Origin: Pseudarthrobacter sp. PS3-L1
Lineage (GTDB): Bacteria > Actinomycetota > Actinomycetes > Actinomycetales > Micrococcaceae
NCBI RefSeq assembly: GCF_030063285.1
Contig: NZ_JASISU010000001.1
Coordinates: 248,001-312,000, forward strand
Length of the DNA stretch: 64,000 bases
Direction: 5' to 3'
Shown here: positions 33,440-35,363 of the stretch, in pieces
How positions within the stretch are numbered: the stretch's first letter is position 1
Layout of the letters: every line of letters starts with the position of its first letter
The notes under the pieces: generated by a model
Told to the model about the DNA's origin: nothing
Database searches by the model: none
What the model saw: only the letters and a program-made list of their open reading frames with translations
Position numbers and translations under genes: made by a program

Positions 33440-34702
33440 TCAGCTGGCCTGGGCGGCAGCAGCACGCTGCTGCGCAAGCCTAATTTCCAGGAGCGTATCC
33501 ATGACCTGCTGGACACGGTCCGCGGCCCCTGCGCTGGTGAACTCTTTTTGGGCCTGACTGAGGAAGTCCACTGCTTCGTCGGATTCTCCTGCTGCTTTGA
33601 GCGACTTGCCGAGCAGCAGCGAGACCTCGCCGGAGGTGTGGGTGGCCAGGTCCTCGCGTTCATGGTGGATCTCGCGGAGCTTTGCGATTGCGGCAGTGAT
33701 GTCACCGGTAAGGTACAGCCAGCGTGCCCGGATGAAAGCCACTTCCAGCCGGTCCACGTTGTTCCCGCCAACAATGGAGAGCGCCAATTCCGCGCGCTCA
33801 ATCGCTGCCAGGGTCTCTGGTTCGACAATGCCGGAGGAAAGCCGGACGGCGGCGGATGCCTTGTTGAACCTGGCCCACAGTTCAATGTCGTTGGCTGGCG
33901 AGAGGAGCTTGGCTGCGCGTTCGTGGTTGCGGATGCCCTCGGGGTAATCGTGGCGCATGAAGGCAACGTTGCCCACCACCCACGCAACCTCGCCGGCGAG
34001 CTGGGACATGGAAGTACCTTCAAGCTGGGTGTTCATGGCCTGGCAGAGGGCCCAGGCTTCATCGAGCCTGCCGCTTTCGGCAAGGGCGCCAATGAGCGCA
34101 CGATGCGCCCCAACAATCAACGTGGAACCCTGAGGCAGGTGCGCGCTCAGGTCAACAGCTGCCTGTGCGTGCCGGACAGCCTCAGTCAGCTGCCCCTGCC
34201 CCTGATGGACTGCGGCGAGCATCTGGCGTGCCCGGACACCAAGCCCCGCTGACTCCTGGGCCATAGGGTGTTCGAGGAGATGTTCCATGATGCGCTGGCA
34301 GCCCTGCCAGTCACCCTGCTTGATCAGGGCCTCTGCCTGCATATATGTCATGTTCCACCAGGCGCTGGTGTTCTTCCCCTCAAGGGCAATCTGCGCCGCA
34401 GCTGCTGCATGGGAGGCCGCAAGGGGGTAATCGCGCAGGTCCCAGGCCTGCCGCGCGTAGAGACCGGCCAGGACATACTCGGCATCACTCAGGGAGATAG
34501 GCTGGCTCCACGCCTCAAGCGCTTTGGGGGCCAACTCAAGCCTGCGCGCCAGCTCCTCGATGATGTCCGCCGTCGGTTCGCGGCGTCCGGTCTCCAGCAG
34601 CGAGATGTAGCTGGGGGAGTAGAGGCCCTTCCCGAGCTCGGCCTGGGTCAAACCGCGTTCCAAACGCTCTGCCCGGAGCTTCTCTCCGAATCCGTTGCCC
34701 AA
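33440..34702 (-). CDS. XRE-family regulator with TPR-like C-terminal region (RRNPP-like)
   Basis: 420 residues. HTH_3 domain at residues 5-60 (EKLRAERLERGLTQAELGKGLYSPSYISLLETGRREP). About 350 residues follow of repeated helical hairpins of TPR type, e.g. ASHAAAAAQIALEGKNTSAWW, LGVRARQMLAAVHQGQGQL, ALIGALAESGRLDEAWALC, ARWLYLTGDITAAIAKL and LGKSLKAAGESDEAVDFL. This order, a single XRE domain then a TPR superhelix, is that of RRNPP peptide-pheromone receptors such as PlcR and NprR. The start is TTG 34702, since GGGAGG lies 6 bp upstream; an upstream GTG at 34726 has no such support. It is divergent from the repeat-containing secreted peptide gene, which is therefore the likely ligand source. 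In relatives of PlcR the peptide binds the TPR groove and alters DNA binding; here that is inference. Confidence 0.85.
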   Translation of the reverse strand: MGNGFGEKLRAERLERGLTQAELGKGLYSPSYISLLETGRREPTADIIEELARRLELAPKALEAWSQPISLSDAEYVLAGLYARQAWDLRDYPLAASHAAAAAQIALEGKNTSAWWNMTYMQAEALIKQGDWQGCQRIMEHLLEHPMAQESAGLGVRARQMLAAVHQGQGQLTEAVRHAQAAVDLSAHLPQGSTLIVGAHRALIGALAESGRLDEAWALCQAMNTQLEGTSMSQLAGEVAWVVGNVAFMRHDYPEGIRNHERAAKLLSPANDIELWARFNKASAAVRLSSGIVEPETLAAIERAELALSIVGGNNVDRLEVAFIRARWLYLTGDITAAIAKLREIHHEREDLATHTSGEVSLLLGKSLKAAGESDEAVDFLSQAQKEFTSAGAADRVQQVMDTLLEIRLAQQRAAAAQAS

Positions 34703-34834
34703 ACCAGTCCTCCCTATAGCGCACAAATTTTTTCAGGTAATGCTTGACAGTACCTGTGGAAGCAATTTTACAATGTATGTCAACACGGACAGTGCCTATT
34801 GTGTAACAAATCCGACTCGTATTGAGGACAACAT
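34703..34834. promoter_or_regulatory. A/T-rich divergent promoter with repeated GACAGTRCCT elements
   Basis: 132-bp region between the TPR regulator and the peptide gene, much A/T-richer than its surroundings. GACAGTACCT (34746-34755) recurs as GACAGTGCCT (34788-34797), 42 bp apart, about four helical turns. An inverted pair CAGGTA / TACCTG (34733-34738 and 34751-34756) overlaps the first element. These are the best candidate binding sites for the regulator. No database motif was available to compare. Confidence 0.5.
34744..34774 (+). promoter_or_regulatory. Candidate sigma-70 promoter of the peptide gene
   Basis: Consensus -35 TTGACA (34744-34749) and near-consensus -10 TACAAT (34769-34774) separated by 19 bp, longer than the usual 17. 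The over-long spacing and overlap of the -35 box with the GACAGTACCT element would suit an activator-dependent promoter. Transcription would start about 55 bp before the ATG. Confidence 0.5.
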
Positions 34835-35092
34835 ATGTTGAAGAAGATTGCTGCTGCGGCTGCCCTGGCGGGCATCGTGGCTCTCGCCGCAGGCACGCCG
34901 GCCGTTTTGTCTGCAGGCATTTCCTCGGGCTCTGCAAGCATCGAGGCGGTGGGCAACTGGCCTGATCCGATGACGTACAAGACGACGGTGGGCAACTGGC
35001 CTGATCCGATGACGTACAAGACGACGGTGGGCAACTGGCCCGACCCCATGACGTACAAGACGACGGTGGGCAACTGGCCTGATCCTATGTAG
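34835..35092 (+). CDS. Secreted repeat-peptide precursor (candidate pheromone)
   Basis: 85 residues. A Sec-type signal peptide occupies about residues 1-28 (MLKK, then the hydrophobic AAAAALAGIVALAAG, with small residues around TPA and LSAG). After a short spacer (ISSGSASIEA) the octapeptide VGNWPDPM occurs four times at residues 39-46, 52-59, 65-72 and 78-85. The first three copies are followed by TYKTT; the last ends the protein. ATG 34835 has GAGGA six bp upstream. Only the octapeptide is common to all four copies, the first being preceded by EA and the others by TT, so it is the best guess for the released signal. The divergent XRE-TPR gene is the likely receptor. Alternatives are a multi-core modified peptide, though no modifying enzyme is nearby, or a small surface protein. 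Confidence 0.85.
   Translation: MLKKIAAAAALAGIVALAAGTPAVLSAGISSGSASIEAVGNWPDPMTYKTTVGNWPDPMTYKTTVGNWPDPMTYKTTVGNWPDPM
34949..35089 (+). repeat. 39-bp coding tandem repeat (3 full + 1 partial copy)
   Basis: Units at 34949-34987, 34988-35026, 35027-35065 and a 24-bp partial unit at 35066-35089. Units 1 and 2 are identical. Unit 3 differs by three silent third-base changes (CCT to CCC, GAT to GAC, CCG to CCC) and unit 4 by one silent change (CCG to CCT). All four encode VGNWPDPM, so changes are silent only: a sign of selection on the peptide rather than a fresh DNA duplication. Confidence 0.95.
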
Positions 35093-35254: not shown

Positions 35255-35278
35255 AAGGGCCTTCGTATGAAGGCCCTT
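35255..35278 (-). terminator. Rho-independent terminator of tRNA-Pro
   Basis: 10-bp perfect stem AAGGGCCTTC / GAAGGCCCTT with a 4-nt loop. Read on the minus strand it is followed by a run of six T, directly downstream of the tRNA 3' end. Confidence 0.85.
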
Positions 35279-35286
35279 CTCTATTT

Positions 35287-35363
35287 TGGTCGGGATGACA
35301 GGATTTGAACCTGCGACCTCGTCGTCCCGAACGACGCGCGCTACCAAGCTGCGCCACATCCCG
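35287..35363 (-). tRNA. tRNA-Pro (anticodon CGG), CCA encoded
   Basis: Cloverleaf on the minus strand: acceptor CGGGATG pairs with CATCCCG, D arm GCGC...GCGC, anticodon stem CGTCG/CGACG around the loop TTCGGGA (anticodon CGG, codon CCG), T arm GCAGG TTCAAAT CCTGT, then discriminator A and encoded CCA. 77 nt with CCA. No integrated element abuts either end. Confidence 0.95.

Follow-up and report, generated by a model that had tools for sequence, protein, structure and literature searches.

Quorum sensing by peptides that act on cytosolic receptors with a tetratricopeptide repeat (TPR) superhelix is presented in the literature as a trait of Bacillota, and the RRNPP systems have been described for Firmicutes (PMC10075063, PMC9765709); a survey made with an RRNPP detector covered Firmicutes and viruses only (PMC10075063). 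For Actinobacteria the known signals are mainly small molecules of the gamma-butyrolactone type (PMC10075063, PMC13220807, PMC4748050), with cyclic or modified peptides also mentioned; a review of actinobacterial quorum sensing gives bioinformatic hints of TPR domains in Streptomyces, Rhodococcus, Saccharopolyspora and Thermobifida, and its entries for Arthrobacter comprise AAA, LuxR-like and REC domains only (PMC4748050). Among the matches listed from an open-access library, neither an actinobacterial RRNPP circuit nor a link from a peptide to cyclic di-GMP (c-di-GMP) was turned up, and the string GNWPDP occurs in no paper of that library. Here we describe a locus at positions 33440..35092 of the window, that is, the whole stretch of 64,000 nucleotides of Pseudarthrobacter sp. 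PS3-L1 that was analysed (contig NZ_JASISU010000001.1, positions 248,001 to 312,000), in which a gene for an XRE-type regulator with a TPR part lies divergent to a gene for a small protein carrying four copies of the octapeptide VGNWPDPM.

We consider it probable that this locus is a peptide-pheromone circuit, consisting of an XRE-TPR receptor and a four-copy precursor. The best reading of the wider data is an actinobacterial RRNPP-like family with two arms, a transcription arm to which the locus of the window belongs and another arm directed at c-di-GMP. The parts of the locus, in positions of the window, are the following.

33440..34702, minus strand: XRE-TPR receptor gene, 420 residues, with a TTG start at 34702 behind a GGGAGGA ribosome site, the start being placed by comparison with 60 genus loci
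34505..34696, minus strand: helix-turn-helix (HTH) DNA-binding domain, model residues 4-67, from Pfam HTH_3 and the model helices
33446..34492, minus strand: TPR superhelix, residues 72-420 of the structure model, predicted to be where the peptide binds
34703..34834, no strand: divergent promoter region common to both genes, 132 bp
34743..34785, no strand: conserved blocks CTTGACAG, CTGTGGAA, ATTTTACAATG and TGTCAACA with short variable spacers, candidate promoter/operator
34835..35092, plus strand: predicted pheromone precursor gene, 85 residues, with a GAGGA ribosome site
34835..34948, plus strand: pre-repeat part of 38 residues, predicted from sequence as export signal, Lys-Lys and then a hydrophobic stretch
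34949..34972, plus strand: VGNWPDPM copy 1
34988..35011, plus strand: VGNWPDPM copy 2
35027..35050, plus strand: VGNWPDPM copy 3, differing silently from copies 1 and 2
35066..35089, plus strand: VGNWPDPM copy 4, which is the end of the protein

The pair is conserved throughout the genus. In a sample of 61 genomes, own genome included, evenly drawn from a larger group, homology searches found the receptor in 61/61 and the precursor likewise in 61/61 (best E-value per genome 8e-8 or lower, in a search that did not use the Trp-Pro criterion applied further below), and because both are found in every genome, the small open reading frame (ORF) beside the receptor is not a chance occurrence. Full-length receptor orthologues, own excluded, are 74-84% identical to that of the window; in one genome of 79% completeness (G053) the receptor is in two pieces with 83% and 78% identity (G053:C1:3486038-3487299). 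The precursors carry 1-4 copies, and the final copy forms the C-terminus of the protein in all 61, namely in 58 parsed precursors and 3 more. The 148 copies of the parsed precursors comprise 7 octapeptides (IGNWPDPM 63, VGNWPDPM 55, IGNWPDPA 10, TGNWPDPM 6, TGNWPDPV 6, IGNWPDPV 4 and VGNWPDPA 4) written in 102 DNA versions, and the linkers are distinct in 73 of 90. The remaining three precursors hold TGIWPDPM twice (G025, with 4 silent differences between the copies), SGNWPNPM twice (G058, with 2 silent differences) and SGNWPYPV once.

Among the 59 multi-copy precursors of the genus, the six-residue core G[NI]WP[DNY]P is uniform within every precursor, so that a change of the core hits every copy of a precursor at once; the eighth residue varies within 4 of them, one copy having Val and the rest Met. 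Since the copies differ silently in 55 of the 59, recent duplication does not explain the uniform cores; with the core uniform despite silent differences and drifting linkers, it is the short peptide that is under selection. The copy number itself drifts, since one database relative (P0064) matches the precursor of the window exactly except that it has 3 copies. In all, 470 relatives of the precursor were returned from about 5.8 billion proteins; the 120 of them that were listed are nameless, 'hypothetical' or bear unrelated names, and their hosts, where named, are Arthrobacter, Pseudarthrobacter or Micrococcaceae.

The longest ORF of the receptor (33440-34726, minus strand) would encode 428 residues, its start at 34726 being less likely. 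At 60 genus loci, own included, the start codon falls at the same aligned residue (GTG 56, ATG 3, TTG 1, the last being that of the window), and the receptor is therefore taken as 33440-34702 with 420 residues, a length it shares with many of its database relatives. Pfam recognised HTH_3 (E 7.8e-11), HTH_31 (E 1e-10) and TPR families in it, and the AlphaFold2 model, with a mean predicted local distance difference test score (pLDDT) of 94.1, consists of the HTH followed by a TPR superhelix with 8 predicted helix pairs spanning residues 72-420, of which the best-conserved helices hold W242/G245/N246/F249, W277/F280/N281/R288 and W329 (model numbering). Among solved HTH-TPR proteins, PlcR comes closest by profile (E 1.3e-9 over positions 4-215), and it stands at rank 2 in Foldseek; the best structural matches include PlcR, Rap and NprR along with unrelated TPR proteins, and the Rgg and ComR profiles match mainly in the HTH region. 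An earlier reading of the sequence had proposed an XRE-TPR gene divergent to an 85-residue ORF with four copies of VGNWPDPM; both ORFs were confirmed, the leader of the small one being a charged N-terminus followed by a hydrophobic stretch, and the superhelical TPR model, with known peptide receptors and also unrelated TPR proteins among its best matches, bears out, as far as the fold goes, what that reading expected of the TPR part.

The precursor runs from MLKK through a hydrophobic stretch, where the 15-residue Kyte-Doolittle mean reaches 2.44, to exactly four VGNWPDPM linked by TYKTT, encoded in a tandem array of 39 nt (34947-35089, 3.7 copies, Tandem Repeats Finder score 258). Its secretion is likely, judging from the charged N-terminus and hydrophobic stretch by themselves. 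It had no match below E 0.001 in Pfam, NCBIfam or PADLOC, and it matches the PHROGs entry phrog_36462 (function not known) at E 4.7e-4.

In the shared promoter region every column of CTTGACAG, CTGTGGAA, ATTTTACAATG and TGTCAACA is at least 95% conserved over 60 genus loci, and the first three blocks with their spacers are exact at 52 of 61 genus precursor loci. They include the dyad ACAG-N3-CTGT, a candidate operator. The sole exact site for CTTGACAG-N3-CTGTGGAA in the genome is this promoter, sites with 3 mismatches numbering 34 versus 32 for a reversed control. The pattern fits autoregulation. A scan for sigma-70-like promoters gave none.

Beyond the genus, relatives by receptor profile were found in 66 of 149 genomes of the bacterial family, covering 17 of its 32 genera, and an automatic filter placed a Trp-Pro precursor at 67 of 90 family loci (L062-L151). 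Words read in the family include GNWPDA, GIWPN, GDWPH, GEWPH, GLWPY, NNWPL, GNWPY and GYWPF. As Trp-Pro is a search criterion in the family and class sets, its constancy there is partly built in; the precursor search in the genus and the second-locus search described below are free of it. Of the leader-like ORFs at the family loci, 67 of the 101 in the divergent slot have a Trp-Pro tail or repeat versus 15 of the 473 elsewhere (Fisher p 9e-47, kinship ignored), the latter count retaining ORFs of L095, L107 and L138 that seem to be real precursors, the receptor start being apparently misplaced. At 34 class loci the figures are 8 of 27 and 5 of 153 (p 7e-5, kinship again ignored), 4 of the 8 coming from one genus and the control retaining a seemingly real precursor on the receptor's strand that ends SIEWP (L184). 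At order level, matches at E 1e-12 were confined to 15 of 248 genomes, and just 3 of these 15 lie beyond the family; one of the three has GGSWPT three times, another a C-terminal SDTWPA, and no such word was seen in the third. At class level, a broader profile hit 97 of 296 genomes at E 1e-10, in many cases through the HTH alone.

Some loci depart from the usual form. At 14 loci (Phytoactinopolyspora 5, Jiangella 7, Haloactinopolyspora 1, an actinomycete bin 1), a short leader-like ORF ending Cys-Cys was found at 13, and 5 of these 13 ORFs contain Trp-Pro, the Cys end having been a search criterion; those at the XRE-TPR loci L268-L280 of Phytoactinopolyspora, Haloactinopolyspora and Jiangella are very short. 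Divergent to XRE receptors, an ORF of 16 residues (L118) ends RVNWPF and ORFs of about 21 residues in two genomes of one genus (L147, L148) end VGDWPD, each without an evident leader, and we take them to be like the ComS/SHP-type short precursors.

Receptor and word are co-inherited. This was seen in 120 curated pairs, obtained from 126 automatic ones after 8 words were set by hand and L114, L122, L130, L140, L148 and L151 were dropped. They hold 32 five-residue words around Trp-Pro (itself partly a search criterion), and the word is shared in 96% of receptor pairs more than 80% identical versus 2% of those with 35-50% identity. Of 87 multi-copy precursors in the wider set, 86 hold a single five-residue word throughout, L120 being the exception. 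Covariation of receptor and peptide is clear at the level of receptor clades only.

In 33 of the 61 genus genomes, own included, there is a second receptor whose similarity (35-46% identity) is confined to the TPR part. The alignment shows that the protein starts at the first TPR helix, and it is therefore HTH-less. Twenty of the 33 loci were read with an ORF filter that ignored Trp-Pro, and at 19 of these a precursor carrying a related word (GWWPN, GWWPD, NWWPN, GSWPN and others) lies divergent to the receptor. In the own genome this second circuit lies at about 515.5-518.6 kb of G000:C10 (locus L062, 515500-520500) and comprises an HTH-less TPR receptor, a precursor and a GGDEF-EAL gene; the precursor has one copy of the word VGWWPNS in its end, VAVGWWPNSIGKF, which closes with VGWWPNSIGKF. 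One cell holds both predicted arms with the words VGNWPDPM and VGWWPNS, out of at least 32 words in the family and its neighbours.

A GGDEF-EAL gene adjoins 33 of 43 HTH-less loci versus 0 of 40 XRE-type loci, with the seemingly broken or partial L116, L136 and L148 counted as misses; the flanks inspected were similar and unequal (5' 0-2.3 kb and 3' 1.4-2.3 kb for the XRE type, 1.35-2.3 and 1.3-2.3 kb for the HTH-less). With 11 GGDEF genes per 3.57 Mb in the own genome, chance adjacency is estimated at a few percent. The gene has the orientation of the receptor in all 33 loci, lying upstream or downstream of it depending on the clade, and the open frames overlap in six loci; as its side differs between clades, the association has outlived rearrangement. 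Of the 33 genes, 25 were read for the GGDEF motif, which 24 keep intact (the own genome has GGNEF); all 7 that were read for EAL and DDFG retain both motifs. A quick tree of 56 receptors has long branches and carries L138 as XRE by hand though no HTH was found; on it the labels XRE, GGDEF-EAL and neither require 5 changes versus 21.5 in shuffles, and 32 of 36 HTH-less rows form one group (Shimodaira-Hasegawa-like approximate likelihood ratio 85), L125 to L128 being separate. We infer that the HTH-less receptor may act on the c-di-GMP enzyme through protein contact and not transcription; such control is suggested by the way the genes are arranged, by the Rap-like absence of an HTH and by RcbA/RcbB in Vibrio as a precedent (PMC12282931). 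Five of the ten HTH-less loci that lack the GGDEF-EAL gene (L106, L125, L126, L129, L131) adjoin a chitinase-like gene with a carbohydrate-binding module (CBM5/12), possibly another output of these receptors; the one at L131 has a weak match to glycoside hydrolase family 18. As single cases, L107 (G158:C1, about 1948-1950 kb) has a tandem pair of HTH-less receptors with two precursors of the words IDDWPH and VGNWPGS, and L070:3-1478 has a GAF-HisKA histidine kinase gene across the precursor from the HTH-less receptor.

The idea of the sequence-only reading that this is a circuit analogous or homologous to RRNPP systems gains support from the conserved pair, the selection on the peptide and the fold, and the search it proposed, for XRE-TPR genes with divergent small precursors in Actinobacteria, yielded the receptors in 17 of 32 genera and the precursors at 67 of 90 loci given above. 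It had described a single circuit; the circuit stands, and its extent is that of a whole family including an HTH-less branch near c-di-GMP genes. It had also considered that the repeat might vary freely without receptor covariation: free variation is not what was found, as the core is fixed or changed in all copies, and covariation is clear at clade level, not at single sites.

As to mechanism, the 85-residue protein would be exported and cut, likely into four VGNWPDPM or shorter Trp-Pro peptides. The octapeptide VGNWPDPM has a calculated monoisotopic mass of 914.396. A released peptide would have to be re-imported, for which 9 SBP_bac_5 binding-protein genes of the genome are candidates, and could then bind in the TPR groove of the XRE regulator encoded on the other side of the promoter region. 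The peptide-bound regulator would likely alter its own binding to that shared region. More broadly, we regard it as somewhat favoured that Actinobacteria have a superfamily of their own for intracellular peptide signalling by secreted Trp-Pro words, with a transcription output through XRE-TPR receptors and a direct c-di-GMP output through HTH-less ones.

Several observations weigh against this picture. Generic TPR proteins and designed pentatricopeptide repeat proteins also match the receptor by fold or profile, some above PlcR, and VIA-align places APPBP2 and MalT at the top, Rap, NprR and AimR lower and PlcR outside the top 50, an absence taken as evidence neither way. The automatic filter gave no Trp-Pro precursor at 23 of 90 family loci, and none was seen by eye at 17 of 70 (L082-L151), many of these being extra XRE-type paralogues; nor was a convincing one present at 9 XRE-TPR loci read on plasmids of Streptomyces and allies. 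In 43 non-redundant receptors, no receptor column passed the permutation threshold for peptide positions -1 and +1, and neither helix A over helix B nor the groove-side helices were favoured. The sole pair past the threshold, column 210 with peptide position -2, is carried by few rows (where the peptide has Gly at -2, 104 of 106 receptors have Glu; where it has Asn there, 5 of 8 have Asp). Finally, no site for CTTGACAG-N3-CTGTGGAA with 1-2 mismatches exists in the own genome, and no regulon is visible.

The receptor might instead respond within the cell to precursor that has not been exported, or to pieces of it, thereby monitoring the state of export or of the proteases, with no signal passing between cells. 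The short ORFs that end VGDWPD without an evident export signal suit such monitoring, which would dispense with the presumed re-import. We consider it unlikely, as nearly all precursors keep a leader-like N-terminus, the copy is always terminal in the genus, and fixed cores with drifting linkers in arrays suit release of a peptide over recognition of a whole protein. Another reading is that the small protein is a secreted antimicrobial or surface peptide, the XRE-TPR gene being its regulator or an immunity gene; bacteriocin loci share the layout of a small secreted peptide beside a regulator, and two ABC exporter-like genes lie past the tRNA. Among the neighbours tested (purD, purC, tRNA-Pro, two ABC transporters, a phosphoesterase and a penicillin-binding protein), however, none was recognisable as a gene for modification or immunity; antimicrobials usually vary, whereas this peptide is nearly unchanged across 61 of 61 genomes, and a paralogous branch is paired with c-di-GMP genes, all of which makes an antimicrobial very improbable. 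That the repeat forms a structural protein of low complexity and stands beside a regulator by accident is suggested by its being a tandem repeat, a kind that can be neutral, and is strongly disfavoured, with next to no probability left to it: one peptide is kept under silent divergence and is retained where the copy number drops to 1, and the pairing recurs family-wide with new words.

Other origins and roles were considered and set aside. For a phage origin, one scan of viral_contigs gave no related locus, and phages yielded a single match, to the HTH only; for a role in anti-phage defence or as a phage regulator, the PADLOC and PHROGs matches of the receptor are confined to the HTH region. 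For a plasmid origin, 41 plasmid records with relatives (37 of them Streptomyces; 20 listed with 24-30% identity) were found, and the 9 read are those without a convincing precursor. The distant XRE-TPR genes of L260-L267, on plasmids of Streptomyces, Embleya and Kitasatospora, lie in several cases near non-ribosomal peptide synthetase, condensation-domain or acyl-carrier genes, with no convincing Trp-Pro precursor. Past the precursor in the window, a tRNA-Pro (cgg) occupies 35287-35363 on the minus strand, and one further feature lies in between.

35255..35278, plus strand: terminator-like hairpin of 10 pairs between precursor and tRNA-Pro (2 such sites per 800 bases versus 0.7 expected from shuffles)

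If the pheromone circuit and its family are real, they would represent a second large radiation of such signalling, independent or anciently related, in a common soil lineage, and Arthrobacter-type bacteria would have a peptide language best known from another bacterial group. Hundreds of their entries named 'hypothetical protein' or 'pentatricopeptide repeat protein' (470 precursor relatives and 402 receptor relatives above threshold) would be signalling pairs, forming a natural collection of matched words and receptors for studies of specificity, and a peptide receptor would be wired to c-di-GMP turnover.

Compared with known systems, the circuit resembles PlcR-PapR of the Bacillus cereus group in that its receptor has a TPR superhelix behind an XRE-type HTH; in PlcR-PapR, too, the small precursor gene adjoins the receptor. 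It differs from it in phylum, in its tandem Trp-Pro peptides and in a longer TPR part. The precursor lies immediately downstream in Bacillales systems, whereas here it is divergent (PMC9765709); duplicated pheromones are reported for some Phr precursors of Bacillus phages (PMC11343458). The HTH-less branch, with its TPR-only receptor beside a precursor, is like Rap in the Rap-Phr and NprR-NprX group of Bacillus; however, Rap has an N-terminal three-helix bundle (PMC9765709), whereas the HTH-less proteins begin at the first TPR helix and have a GGDEF-EAL neighbour instead. In RcbA/RcbB of Vibrio vulnificus a TPR protein likewise acts on a GGDEF enzyme through contact, in another phylum and with no peptide signal named in the abstract (PMC12282931). 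Known actinobacterial quorum sensing shares the phylum, Actinomycetota, and differs in relying mainly on small molecules. Beyond PlcR the sequence relation is weak. The circuit would work like an RRNPP system, with predicted peptide binding, and it has the features of an RRNPP(A) receptor locus: a TPR superhelix fold in the model, an N-terminal HTH, an adjacent small propeptide gene and predicted export.

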